Assembly (NCBI RefSeq): GCF_030296755.1
Contig: NZ_AP027741.1
Span: 186,001 to 250,000, forward strand
DNA from: Methylophaga marina
GTDB lineage: Bacteria > Pseudomonadota > Gammaproteobacteria > Nitrosococcales > Methylophagaceae
Direction: 5' to 3'
Length of the DNA: 64,000 nt
Within the stretch, counting starts at the first letter, position 1; each line of letters opens with the position of its first letter. Positions 48,008 to 52,957 of the stretch are shown in pieces. The translations under genes were made by a program, and so were the position numbers. Below the pieces are notes generated by a model. The model worked only from the letters and a program-made list of their open reading frames with translations. It had not been told where the DNA came from and did no database searches.

Positions 48008-48034
48008 ATGCCCGGTGTTCACACCGGGCATTTT
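48008..48034 (+). terminator. Terminator after the double-propeller gene
   Basis: A 10-bp perfect stem ATGCCCGGTG / CACCGGGCAT with loop TTCA and then TTT. It is convergent with the cyclase gene, which ends inside it. Confidence 0.88.
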
Positions 48035-49657
48035 AAAATCCAGTGATCACATTATCAGTATCAGCGGTCTTCAAACTGGGTTGTTTAAAATAGTTATAAC
48101 CATTTTTGTGCTGTGACTTCACTTCATACATAGCCAGGTCAGCATATTTAAGCAGTGATTCCAAGTTGTCGGCATTGAATGGATAAAGCGCGATACCGAT
48201 ACTCGCACTAATATTGACCGTGTTATAGAGCTCACATTCAATTGGTTCACGTAAAATACTCAGCAGTTTTTCTGCGATACGACTCGCTTCCAATAGGTCT
48301 GTGGTTAATCTGGCAAAAATAACAAATTCATCGCCCCCCAACGTATCGCCACATCGTCAGCACGCACAGAACTCAATAATCGATTTGCGACTTCAATCAA
48401 CACTTTGTCACCTGCTTCATGGCCAAACTGGTCATTAACGGGTTTAAAGCCATCCAAATCGATCATAAACAGGCCATAAGCAAAACGCTTAGTCTCAGCT
48501 AATGTAATGAGCTGTTCTATCTTATTTTCTCCAGCACCACGATTATAAAGATTGGTTAAAGCATCAACTTCAGCCTGCCCTTTGAGTTTTTCTTCACGAT
48601 TCCGACGTTCAGAGATATCTTGTAAAACAATCTCAAATGACGACGCTTTATCATCATCAGTCATAAGTGAAATAAGACAATATAGCCATCGAGTCTCACC
48701 ACTGTCCTCAATTTTTATATCAACGGCACGTGACTCACCTGTTAATAAAACCTCAGCAGCAGCCGACTCTAAACGACTTTTTTCCTCGTCAAAGACGGTG
48801 AAGAATGAAACGGGGTCTTGCTGAGAAATTTTTTCAAAACTTGGCTTACCAATAATATTTCTGAATGATGGGTTATGCAGTTTCATTTTGCCATCAATAT
48901 CCACAATTGCGATGCCATGACTGGATTGCTCAAAGATATCTCTGAAACGGTTTTCGAGCTCTTCTACTTCCTGTCGTAGCGCTCTTTCAAGGTTGATATT
49001 ATCTTCAACCGAGCTCAATAAGTGGTTGATATCATGAGTTAATAAACCAATTTCATCATATTTGTGTGATGGCGTAGGAACCAGGCGTTGGTCACTACCA
49101 ATACGAATACTATGCAAACGCTTGGCTAGGCGTTTAATTTCTGTAATGAGCTGTCTGTTAAGTAAAAAAATGATTAAGGTAATTAAAATAAATGTCTGCA
49201 CAGCGATGAGAGTCACATGATTCATAGCCGTTTTTTTAGCATCGAATTGAATTAAGTCAATATTTGGGGCAACCAATAACTTTCCGACCATTTCACCCGT
49301 AACAAAGGGTGAATCTAAATTAAACCGCAGAGTCTCAACGGACTCATCAGGCATAATGCCACGCGTTGATAATGTTTCCTGGGTGGATTTTAGTACCACG
49401 GCTTTCACTAAATCACTGGCAGCAATGCCGTCAACTACTTCTTTAGCCAATGTCAGATCATCCAGATAGGCAGCAATGGCAGCAGTTTGGGACACGGCAT
49501 GAACCAGTTGCCTCAGTTGTTTTTGACTCTGGGCAAACTCTTTTGAATAGGTATAACTATAAAATACATAGCCAGTACATAAGGCCGACACCAGGCCAGC
49601 AAGCAACAGTATTAGGGCTAAACGTGTTGCGATACTGGTACGAAGCTTAGTCAACAT
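48033..49657 (-). pseudogene. HAMP-PAS-GGDEF membrane diguanylate cyclase, frameshifted inside the GGDEF motif
   Basis: Fragments 48305-49657 and 48033-48341 join to a 541-residue protein. It has helix 1 (about residues 10-33), a periplasmic domain, helix 2, HAMP, PAS (about 240-355, ending in VLQDISERRNREEK), and GGDEF. The first frame ends in RWGAMNLLFLPD, but one extra base in the six-C run at 48334-48339 gives RWGGDEFVIF, an intact active site with inhibitory RADD before it. It overlaps the binding-protein gene by 11 bases. Start at ATG 49657. Confidence 0.87.
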
Positions 49658-50069
49658 AACCAAGAATTTTTAATTTATCGTTCACTTTATCTGCTTCAAC
49701 ATAGCCAATAGCATCCGTATCTGTCTCTAAGTAGTTAATCAACTCTTTATCACTGACTTCTCTGGGCAAGGTCGCTCGTCCAGAAAAAAGTAATCGGGCT
49801 CGGTATGAATTGATTTCGTTAAGTGTTTTATTAACAAGATTGAGATAAAACTGTTTTCTCGTAGACGAGTTAAGTTTCTGGTCAAGTAAAATAATGCGCT
49901 GTCCCGATGCATAGAATGTGGTTCTTCCCATGAAAATATCAATGATTTGTTGTTTTGATAATTCATTTAAAGGATTATTTTTATTGGCCACAACAACAAG
50001 ATCATCGGCAGAAACCATGCTAGGCATCAATGATAAAAGCAGTATGAATGATACGAATAACGTCTTCAT
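49647..50069 (-). CDS. Small periplasmic binding protein (PstS-like fold)
   Basis: A 140-residue exported protein with a signal peptide ending VSA near residue 21. NPLNELSKQQIIDIFMGRTTFYASGQRI near residues 32-59 and INYLETDTDAIGYVE near residue 110 are typical of the compact phosphate-binding-like domain. It is much shorter than PstS, so it may be a half-sized ligand binder. It overlaps the porin gene by 1 base and the cyclase gene by 11 bases. It therefore probably acts as the sensor partner of the cyclase, which is inferred. Confidence 0.8.
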   Translation of the reverse strand: MKTLFVSFILLLSLMPSMVSADDLVVVANKNNPLNELSKQQIIDIFMGRTTFYASGQRIILLDQKLNSSTRKQFYLNLVNKTLNEINSYRARLLFSGRATLPREVSDKELINYLETDTDAIGYVEADKVNDKLKILGYVD

Positions 50070-51312
50070 CAGAATATAAAATCCATGGTCAGACTAAACG
50101 TATTAAAACTGTGTTGCTTATCTATAGGGTTTTTCTGCTCGAAAATAAAATCGCCATATTTTTCAATCCAGGTTCTATCCCACTGCGCTTTTAATGACAC
50201 TCTCTGTGACACATCCCAACGCGCACCAATACCAATACTTCCCTGATCGGTATACATAGCATTGCTCGCAGCCTGCGTAATAGCTTGTAGTTGCTGATAA
50301 GCGGGAATAAAGGCCGGCGCTGATGTTATCTTCTCTCTACTGCCAAGCGTTTTAAATTTACTGACGATAATATACGGTGTGATTGAACCGAAACGATGAC
50401 CCACGCTGAGGTATCCGGAAGCATATTTATCTTGAACGCTGGTTTCCGCTTTCACTAAGCTGAGTTCACTTTGAATCAACCAGTTATCTTTGTCATAGCT
50501 AACGCCAGCGGCTAAATATTTAAGCCAGGTATCATTGATAGAAAATCCAGCCAGTGAAGCCGCTTCAGGCCAGCCAAATTCTGATGCTTGTATTAAAGCC
50601 TCATCAAGTGCCGCTACAGGATCTGCCTTATCATTAATCTTCGCTTGAGAATACAAAACACGAAATTGCCATGTCTGATTTTCCCAACCCAGGCTTACAC
50701 CATAATTGGGCTCAAAGATAACCTCTTCTGAACCATCGCTAATGGCATAAGGGAAATGACTACGTCCTCCCCAGATAGAGGTGGTCAGCATTCCATCTGC
50801 TAGCCTTGAGTTATGTTTTAACTCAACACCATCATATTTATCACTGGCGATCTGGCCATAGAATTCAACTGGATGATGAGCCCATAAATTAGCAAACCCC
50901 ACGTTCTTATATTCAGATGACATAAAAACGCCATTCGGCATGCGGCCAATATTCAGCTCAAAAGCATCATTGATATGGTAGGAAAAAAAGCTGACTCAAT
51001 ACTTCGGTTCAGGGAGTTTTCTGGTCGTTTTTCTAATAAGAACTGCGTCGTGAATGTCAGTTTATGGTTAAACGCATAGTCCAGCTGCATTCCCAAATTA
51101 GAAGCAGTCGTCCAATCAAACCCTTTATCGAAGCCTTCTTGTTCAATCGAATGTCGATAATAAATATCATCACTATCGTTATAGACAAGACCAAGTGAAC
51201 CATAGCCGTTGATGTGAAAATTATCGATACCGGTATCAAATGCTGCTGCTTGAAATGGATATGTGATTATCCACAACAACAATAGATGTAAACGGTATCT
51301 GAGCTTGAACAA
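50069..51312 (-). pseudogene. Outer-membrane porin-like protein, frameshifted
   Basis: Fragments 50953-51312 and 50069-50941 join to a 414-residue barrel with a signal peptide ending in QAAA near residue 24. The upstream frame ends IESAFFPTISMMLLS. Adding one base to the seven-A run at 50983-50989 gives IESAFFSYHINDAFELNIGRMP and continues to the C-terminal FSLTMDFIF, with the final Phe of an outer-membrane barrel. It is the first gene of the porin/binding-protein/cyclase unit. The permeating solute is unknown. Confidence 0.83.
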
Positions 51313-51429
51313 CTTAATACTCTCACTTTCACGACTTAATTAACGAATTCCCATAAGAATTATATAGATATTTTCCTCAAATTTGTTATGCAAAACTCAA
51401 TTTCAAGGTATAGCTGGTCATTACGCTAG

Positions 51430-51530
51430 TTACTCACAATTTCTGTGGAAAATAATGTGGATAACTTTCTAGTAAATCTGTAAGTGTTTCTTTTATGGCA
51501 ACCTTTATGATGTGGTTAAATTTTAACCAA
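51430..51530 (+). repeat. 101-bp intergenic repeat with DnaA boxes, copy 1
   Basis: One of three ungapped copies. It carries TGTGGATAA at 51456-51464, the reverse complement of the DnaA box TTATCCACA, and a weaker TGTGGAAAA at 51444-51452. A palindrome TGGTTAAATTTTAACCA occupies 51513-51529. Copy 1 is the most diverged in its first third. Confidence 0.92.
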
Positions 51531-51613
51531 CGAGAAAATCAGCCGAAAAATGTTGATATATCTAGGTTTATGAAACAGACATGATCAGTATTCCAGAAAT
51601 AATCGTATTCTTT

Positions 51614-51714
51614 TTACTAACAATTTCAGTGGATAAGCATGTGCATAACTTTCTGGTAAATCTGTAAGTGACTCTTTTATGACAAGCTTTATGACTTGGT
51701 TATTTTTTAACCAA
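51614..51714 (+). repeat. 101-bp intergenic repeat with DnaA boxes, copy 2
   Basis: It starts 184 bp after copy 1. TGTGCATAA at 51640-51648 (TTATGCACA on the other strand, fits TTATNCACA) and AGTGGATAA at 51628-51636 lie at the same offsets as in copy 1. The end palindrome at 51697-51713 keeps its arms TGGTTA / TAACCA while its centre has changed. Confidence 0.92.
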
Positions 51715-51796
51715 TCCCATTTTCGCATAGCAAAGTCATCGTTGAAGATGGAAGATCAAAAAGAAGTAAACTCGATAAAAGAATCACTTATTCACC

Positions 51797-51897
51797 TTAC
51801 TCACAATTCCAGTGGATAAGCATGTGGATAACTTTCTGGTAAATCTGTAAGTGTTTCTTTTATGACAAGCTTTAAGGAATGGTTAAAATTTAACCAG
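51797..51897 (+). repeat. 101-bp intergenic repeat with DnaA boxes, copy 3
   Basis: It starts 183 bp after copy 2. A perfect TGTGGATAA is at 51823-51831 and AGTGGATAA at 51811-51819. The palindrome TGGTTAAAATTTAACCA at 51880-51896 is the exact reverse complement of the copy-1 version. The unrepeated spacers are about 82-83 bp and show no likeness to each other by eye. Confidence 0.92.
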
Positions 51898-51941
51898 CAC
51901 CTATTAAAAAGCTATCCTAAGAAACGCATTATTGAAGATGT

Positions 51942-52445
51942 TCAAACACTTAATAATGCTCTCTCACGCCCTAATAAAATCTGTTTACGTTCAATGCCCC
52001 AGCGATAGCCTGAAAGGTTTCCGTTTTTATTCACAATACGATGACAAGGAACCAGTAATGCCAGTGAATTCGCGGCACAAGCATTGGCAACGGCTCGCAC
52101 TGACGAAGGCCGACCAAGCATCATTGCGAGCTCAGTATACGTTCTGGTTTGTCCAGCAGGTATTTGCAATAAGGTATTCCATACTGACTTTTGAAACGAT
52201 GTACCTTCCATCTGAATGGGCAAATCTAGCTCGCCTGTTGGCGCTTCAATATAGTTTAAAATCTGGATTAAATAATCCGTTAATAAGGTATCGTTTTCCT
52301 GCTGTTTTGCATGTGGATATTTTTCCAGCAGGTGCTCAACTAACCTGTCTGGATCGTCAGCCAGTGCCACAAAACAGATACCATTGTCATTGCCAGCCAC
52401 CAGAAGACAGCCGAGGCTGGAAATACCTAACTCATAAAACACCAT
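51942..52445 (-). CDS. ogt: Methylated-DNA-protein-cysteine methyltransferase
   Basis: A 167-residue suicide repair enzyme that takes a methyl group from O6-methylguanine onto its own cysteine. The active-site LLVPCHRIVNKNGNLSGYRWG near residues 131-151, and the FQKSVWNTLLQIPAGQTRTYTE region near residue 86, are typical. I chose ATG 52445 because AGGGAGG precedes it with 8 bases spacing; the frame is open further up to 52553. It lies beside the DnaA-box repeats, and is divergent from the 52553 gene. Confidence 0.93.
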   Translation of the reverse strand: MVFYELGISSLGCLLVAGNDNGICFVALADDPDRLVEHLLEKYPHAKQQENDTLLTDYLIQILNYIEAPTGELDLPIQMEGTSFQKSVWNTLLQIPAGQTRTYTELAMMLGRPSSVRAVANACAANSLALLVPCHRIVNKNGNLSGYRWGIERKQILLGRERALLSV

Positions 52446-52552
52446 GAACTTGTCCTCCCTATTGAATGTATTTTTCATATAACATATGAAGCTCTGAACT
52501 AAATCGTATTCATCATTGCCAGAGACATGATTGAATACTGAGGAGTGAACCA

Positions 52553-52957
52553 TTGAAAATTTCTAGCTTATTGCTTTTTTTATGCATGTGCCCTGCTGTA
52601 TTCGCTGGTAATTTGAACTATCAGTTTAGCGGAGATAGTTTACAAAAATTATATGCTGAGCTTCATTATTTACGTGAAGTAGGTATCGAAATTCATCAAA
52701 AATACGATGTGAAAAAAAACCCAGATCAGCTTCGCTTTTGTAAGGGTGAGTACGGATTTATTTCTACACGTGCAAAATCCACCATTGGTATTGCAAACCG
52801 TTTGACCAGTCCACACAAAGATGAATATATCGCCGCTGGCTGGAAAGCCTATGAATGCAGTCAGTGTAGTGGTAGTATCGAAGCATGTGATGCAGTGCCT
52901 CCAGTACTTGAAACCATAAAAGCAGAATTCAAAGAAAAACAAAACGCGACTGAATAA
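52553..52957 (+). CDS. Secreted Cys-containing protein of unknown function
   Basis: A 134-residue protein with a signal peptide ending VFAG near residue 19. The mature part has Cys in RFCKGEYGF and a YECSQCSGSIEACDAV cluster near residues 103-118, spacing that could hold a metal or disulfides. I recognise no family. TTG 52553 is the likely start, with GAGGAG before it. It lies 4 bases before the His/Cys-rich gene and heads the copper-efflux region. Confidence 0.65.
   Translation: MKISSLLLFLCMCPAVFAGNLNYQFSGDSLQKLYAELHYLREVGIEIHQKYDVKKNPDQLRFCKGEYGFISTRAKSTIGIANRLTSPHKDEYIAAGWKAYECSQCSGSIEACDAVPPVLETIKAEFKEKQNATE

Follow-up and report, generated by a model that had tools for sequence, protein, structure and literature searches.

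In E. coli, copying of the chromosome is started by the protein DnaA, and ADP-DnaA is recharged at sites called DnaA-reactivating sequences (DARS). The published statements used here come from excerpts of the papers cited. According to these, DARS1 and DARS2 of E. coli share common DnaA boxes I-III at equal spacing with box I reversed, and this head-to-head arrangement is essential to DARS (PMC5742627, PMC10380432). DARS1 has a total size of 101 bp (PMC5742627), Fis is required for DARS2 activity (PMC4245941), and both loci are listed as DnaA-bound by ChIP-seq (PMC11317965). The datA site promotes ATP hydrolysis together with IHF (PMC10380432). As to their distribution, PMC10380432 states, citing another paper, that many proteobacteria have conserved DARS-like sequences; PMC4245941 describes the conservation of Fis, and likewise of the DARS2 core, as specific to gamma-proteobacteria related to E. 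coli; the excerpt of PMC8682772 treats DARS in species related to E. coli, and that of PMC13220808 gives them as present in E. coli and absent from B. subtilis.

In E. coli MG1655 the gap between bioD and uvrB holds the boxes TTATCCACT (+), TTATCCACA (-) and TAATACACA (-) at offsets 0/14/26, and TTATTCACC (+), CTATCCACA (-) and TTCTTCACA (-) are located at the same offsets upstream of mutH. Based on the gene context these two box sets were taken as DARS1 and DARS2, respectively. A box geometry identical to both, 0(+)/14(-)/26(-), was detected three times in the window, i.e. the whole analysed stretch of 64,000 nucleotides of Methylophaga marina, which covers positions 186,001-250,000 of the single 3,106,976-base contig of the host genome (G000; genomes and loci are given by our own numbers, G and L). 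Judged from its sequence, this feature is very probably a tandem array of three DARS-type sites.

The three ungapped direct copies starting at 51430, 51614 and 51797 with a period of 184 and then 183 bp, which had been described in a sequence-only reading, were recovered by a repeat search of the 64-kb window, and the outer two copies are 82% and 86% identical to the middle one over 108 nt. Each unit spans 100 bp. Box I lies at +0 on the plus strand and boxes II and III at +14 and +26 on the minus strand; a middle part of 48 bp follows, and the palindrome is located at +83. Nine DnaA boxes, some of them degenerate, lie within the 467 bp of the array. The earlier reading had correctly placed the exact minus-strand box, the weaker box and the palindrome in all three copies, and the spacers, 84 and 83 bp long, are indeed unrelated to each other; its description of a box pair per unit overlooked the third box on the plus strand at +0. 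Box III exactly matches TTATNCACA in all three copies, while box II shows one mismatch in each of them. In copies 1 and 3 box I is TTACTCACA, with one mismatch; copy 2 has TTACTAACA instead, whose two mismatches to TTATNCACA count against an array of DARS. Among 37 aligned copies seven of the nine columns are invariant in each of the boxes I, II and III. Box I is thus as constant as the other two and decides what the element is.

With up to three mismatches the core pattern matches only the three places of the array in the 64-kb window, and a further 580 kb sampled from the host genome gave no match, which argues that the array is more than a chance occurrence. An extra near-consensus DnaA box, TTATTCACC, is located at 51788-51796 immediately 5' of box I of unit 3, and a box at -9 (at most one mismatch) was observed in 10 of 45 units. 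A GGDEF gene and a porin-like gene on the minus strand (48033-49663 and 50069-51312; porin-like by look, no Pfam hit) each consist of two ORFs in different frames and look frameshifted, either in reality or due to sequencing error. A reading of the region as RNA was rejected, the Rfam search of 51000-52600 having yielded two hits, both far below the gathering scores; a tRNA or tmRNA gene was not found in the 64-kb window.

Table. Features of the array and its ogt flank (positions in the window)
Feature	Position	Strand	Basis or remark
DARS-type unit 1	51430..51529	+	repeat search, unit model
unit 1 DnaA box I (TTACTCACA)	51430..51438	+	geometry as E. coli DARS1/2
unit 1 DnaA box II (TTTTCCACA)	51444..51452	-	box scan
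unit 1 DnaA box III (TTATCCACA)	51456..51464	-	box scan
unit 1 Fis consensus site	51514..51528	.	within palindrome 51513-51529
spacer 1, 84 bp	51530..51613	.	sequence poorly conserved
DARS-type unit 2	51614..51713	+	repeat search, unit model
unit 2 DnaA box I (TTACTAACA, two mismatches)	51614..51622	+	box scan
unit 2 DnaA box II (TTATCCACT)	51628..51636	-	box scan
unit 2 DnaA box III (TTATGCACA)	51640..51648	-	box scan
unit 2 Fis consensus site	51698..51712	.	consensus scan
spacer 2, 83 bp	51714..51796	.	sequence poorly conserved
DARS-type unit 3	51797..51896	+	repeat search, unit model
unit 3 DnaA box I (TTACTCACA)	51797..51805	+	box scan
unit 3 DnaA box II (TTATCCACT)	51811..51819	-	box scan
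unit 3 DnaA box III (TTATCCACA)	51823..51831	-	box scan
unit 3 Fis consensus site	51881..51895	.	consensus scan
ogt (O6-methylguanine-DNA methyltransferase)	51942..52553	-	3' end towards array; marks locus A

The three units carry the features by which DARS are recognised: boxes I-III with box I opposite to boxes II and III (3/3 units, box I of unit 2 being degenerate), the box spacing of E. coli DARS1 and DARS2, and an intergenic position between oriC and terminus which is common to relatives. Of the 35 bp of the core, 26, 26 and 28 bases in units 1-3 are identical to DARS1. One difference that counts against an array of DARS concerns the consensus box, which is box II in DARS1 and box III in the window, where box II is imperfect. 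The likeness to datA, whose arrangement of boxes is accompanied by one IHF site, consists in a cluster of DnaA boxes away from oriC; datA gave only a 3-mismatch match to the core pattern, without a head-to-head box I at the required position, and by this pattern and box scan of datA the window units do not belong to its type. The earlier suggestion of a datA- or DARS-like locus therefore holds for DARS, by box number, order, orientation and spacing and by the conservation of units over spacers, and fails for datA, which lacks a box at the box-I position.

A unit model built from sequence only was used to search the genomes of the genus and family. Matches were obtained in all 24 genomes of the genus and in 55 of 57 genomes of the family (absent in G023 and G329), and a pattern derived from the array also matches M. 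sulfidovorans DSM 11578 and one Methylophaga metagenome-assembled genome. The host genome contains five units at three loci, namely the array (locus A) and loci at 782,988 (B) and 2,639,391 (C). By synteny, locus A beside ogt harbours three units in G000, G012, G014 and G022 and a single unit in G003, G004, G005, G006, G013 and G015; ogt adjoins the units in 10 of the 11 loci listed, the exception being L062, which was assigned to none of the three loci, and L066 belongs to locus A. Locus B lies between a PP-loop gene, which we take to be ttcA, and a glyoxalase gene, and locus C is flanked by cobO on one side and a clpA-like gene, presumably clpA, on the other; both comprise one or two units. 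Copy number thus differs between species at all three loci (1, 2 or 3 units). The clpA-like gene beside locus C (L048:2906-5180, about 2,636,905-2,639,179 in G000) appears as two overlapping ORFs. According to the unit-model search, G058 has three units at the spacing of the array. The single locus-A unit of G004 (L078) has a degenerate box I, TTGTTAACA, which counts against the assignment to DARS.

In the sampled stretches of the host chromosome the GC skew changes sharply near 1.44 Mb, where three TTATCCACA boxes lie close by (L125:18734-18776, 1,438,734-1,438,776 in G000), and switches back near 3.0 Mb, and the origin is therefore presumed at about 1,438,750, between genes which we take to be folA-like and priA-like and about 216 kb from dnaA. 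An origin at dnaA itself (1,655 kb) was dropped on account of this skew switch and the adjacent boxes. The presumed oriC is likewise a DnaA box cluster, but has no match to the DARS core with up to four mismatches. Relative to it the array is located at a distance of about 1.20 Mb, corresponding to about 77% of the replichore, locus B at 0.66 Mb (42%) and locus C at 1.20 Mb on the other arm (77%). For comparison, the coordinates in the excerpt of PMC11317965 place DARS2 of E. coli at about 41% and DARS1 at about 66%. A symmetry of the array and locus C is not claimed, since the distances, both about 1.20 Mb from the presumed oriC in G000, are unequal relative to the oriC-like match in G007 (about 0.87 and 1.13 Mb) and G009 (about 1.25 and 0.47 Mb).

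The units of the fetched loci and of L105, all found by similarity to the window array, were scanned for the Fis consensus GnnYAnnnnnTRnnC (excerpt of PMC4245941) and for the IHF pattern WATCAANNNNTTR with at most one mismatch. In all 18 locus-A units scanned (10 loci) the palindrome constitutes a Fis consensus site at +84, although these are not 18 independent cases since the arrays of G014 and G022 are nearly identical. For locus B, 16 of 20 units also have the consensus at +84/85, a contig end cutting off one of the four others; for locus C the figure is 5 of 8. IHF sites at +119/120 and/or +148/149 were detected in 18 of 20 units of locus B and in all eight units of locus C (26/28 together), the former having a further site at -18 in 19 of 20 units, whereas none of the 18 locus-A units has an IHF site in the register of B and C. 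In L062 (G029) neither a Fis nor an IHF consensus was found.

Locus A is not free of IHF sites throughout, as a forward site at +153/154 is present in four of its six single-copy loci (L055, L066, L068 and L070, not L057 and L078) and in the third unit of G012 (L053). The window array lacks this forward site and shows one-mismatch reverse hits only, at +116 in unit 1 and +146 in unit 3, a finding that counts against an array of DARS. These scans suggest a Fis-only window array in a chromosome whose two other loci have putative Fis and IHF sites in fixed register. Among the genes of the host genome are one for Hda, which scores above the curated cut-off, and a 107-aa frame for a Fis homologue with 49% identity to that of E. 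coli.

With nine DnaA boxes in so short a stretch, the array might instead soak up DnaA by titration without reactivating it. The two activities are compatible, and DARS1, DARS2 and datA are credited with a large fraction of the titration power of the chromosome (PMC12371093, section title). However, titration alone leaves unexplained why the boxes keep the fixed head-to-head geometry of DARS1 and DARS2, which was not found at datA, and why the Fis site keeps its register, and as the sole function it seems unlikely.

The assignment to DARS is further supported by the conservation of units over spacers. Between G000 and G012 or G014 the units are 87-91% identical without any gap column, compared with 52-58% for the spacers (spacer 2 gapped) and 64-70% for the flanks; the boxes reach 94-95% and the palindrome 90%. 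The 48-bp middle part is conserved as well (85-89% in these comparisons, 85-93% over all pairs), without likeness to any recognised site, which counts against an array of DARS. In the closer pair, G012 and G014, the units are 93-96% identical and the spacers 79% and 56%. Eighteen of 45 units have the 9-mer TCGCTAAGT as an exact match at +47; there are 30 exact hits in the 565 kb of fetched loci, and inverted copies lie near -10 (one mismatch) and at +156 to +162, for example in L058:6600-7700 and other locus-B loci.

In a tree of the units, from which the rows L054, L075 and L078 were omitted, the units cluster by locus, and copies 1 and 2 of the array cluster by position across G000, G012 and G014. 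Strict positional orthology of all copies was rejected, as the third copy of G000 is placed next to the copy-2 group, apart from copies 3 of G012 and G014. By this tree, at least one duplication is older than the split of the three species, and most simply the triplication itself would be older as well.

The gene neighbourhood bears on a further explanation, namely that the array is a DnaA- and Fis-dependent regulatory region of the leftward operon or of ogt. The array does lie upstream of the leftward genes, which begin near 51312, and these left-hand genes are also present beside the single unit of G004 (L078). The other five single-copy A loci (L055, L057, L066, L068 and L070), however, have none of the four left-hand genes in the 5.8-13 kb examined, and ogt still adjoins the unit there with its 3' end towards it. 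Taking into account that the units of loci B and C are situated in other gene contexts, such a regulatory role as the explanation of the array is highly improbable.

A core pattern based on the units of Methylophaga together with DARS1 of E. coli was searched with at most one mismatch in the genomes of the class, where it was found in 218 of 281 genomes as opposed to none for the reversed control. The flanks of five other families, picked for high counts or clusters, were viewed first: Fis sites at +86 were observed in four families and IHF sites at +120/121 in three of those four, while the fifth family (G075, G189, G272) has neither. The held-out set consisted of the first-listed match per family among the matches listed, with flanks unviewed, for 52 families (in G115 the second-listed match was taken because the first touched a contig end). 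An exact Fis consensus at +84 to +87 is present in 14 of the 52, compared with a mean of 0.17 and a maximum of 2 in 93 other windows of four offsets, and in 37 of 52 if one mismatch is allowed (mean of the other windows 2.25, maximum 11). IHF sites at +119 to +122 were found in 31 of 52 with at most one mismatch (mean 0.32 and maximum 3 in 92 windows) and in 11 of 52 as exact matches (mean of the other windows 0.01, maximum 1).

This common layout of the class differs from both E. coli sites. In the same scans two IHF sites of DARS2, each with one mismatch, lie at +93 and +109, and its sole exact Fis match is at +145. In DARS1 the stretch between -60 and +200 is free of both consensus sequences, one Fis match being located farther out at +263. 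Tandem cores on the same strand were looked for in 16 genomes, which were mostly picked for high counts or clusters and give no estimate of frequency: three cores occur in G168 (334 and 355 bp apart) and G255 (357 and 367 bp), and two in G189 (401 bp), G272 (594 bp) and G063 (353 bp).

In the family, G026 contains six units on one strand within 17 kb (contig C16, L214), with ordinary genes between them (a symporter, histidine kinases and others; 10 of the 18 listed ORFs scanned), and may be a site of gene accumulation between the repeats. Such a cluster and the variable copy number at all three loci would suit a selfish or recombinogenic dispersed repeat with incidental DnaA boxes, but this reading is hardly tenable given the syntenic positions of the units across species, the boxes kept while spacers decay and the core geometry common to most genomes of the class. 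The earlier reading had itself named a generic repeat without conserved boxes as the finding that would speak against it; the copies examined keep their boxes, with few degenerate, and occupy three syntenic loci.

The assignment of the array to DARS draws on the sequence and geometry of the units, on their conservation and synteny and on the registers of the sites; it would predict that proteins bind, that ADP is released and that the three copies raise or tune the output. In each unit ADP-DnaA would occupy box I in head-to-head orientation to boxes II and III, and the contact of the AAA+ domains would loosen ADP. The apo-DnaA released could then take up ATP, so that more ATP-DnaA competent for initiation would become available. 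At +84 of each unit, bound Fis may shape or activate the complex, and IHF probably acts at loci B and C with their fixed register, less likely at the window array. The three units would add dose.

A broader proposal, to which we give as a whole clearly less than even chances, would be that outside the enterics the usual DARS is a compact module of fixed layout, with Fis near +85 and IHF near +120 beside the core, to which DARS1 and DARS2 of E. coli are rearranged exceptions, and that lineages have repeatedly formed tandem arrays by multiplying such modules, which would serve to adjust dosage. In the Methylophaga array the module would then have become Fis-only and be replicated late, at about 77% of the replichore, so that DnaA recharging might follow the growth phase through Fis and the near-completion of the previous round more than the IHF cycle.

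The literature found, as far as its excerpts go, treats DARS almost wholly via two sites in E. coli and close relatives. The present scans add a core geometry found across the class with a Fis and IHF register unlike that of E. coli DARS2, which provides a rule, based on sequence, by which DARS can be looked for in non-model bacteria. The genus furthermore offers a natural series of one, two or three units at orthologous loci, and a single chromosome offers DARS-type loci with and without in-register IHF sites, so that the effect of DARS dose, Fis and IHF on initiation timing becomes testable.

The unit length of the window array fits the 101 bp of DARS1, a type of site that requires neither Fis nor IHF, yet every unit carries a Fis consensus, and DARS1 is a single copy with other neighbours as opposed to three tandem units. 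DARS2 is a single 455-bp site in contrast to three units of about 100 bp, and its layout does not recur in the window units, which have Fis at +84 instead of +145 and no IHF site at +93 or +109; the difference in the Fis register counts against an array of DARS. Of the earlier statement that no element of this shape had been described, the part on the single unit does not stand, as the unit corresponds to the core of DARS1 and DARS2; for tandem DARS and the +85/+120 layout a search of full-text literature, whose coverage leaves out most subscription papers, returned no description. DARS as a kind are known, and it is the array form and the class-wide layout that look new.
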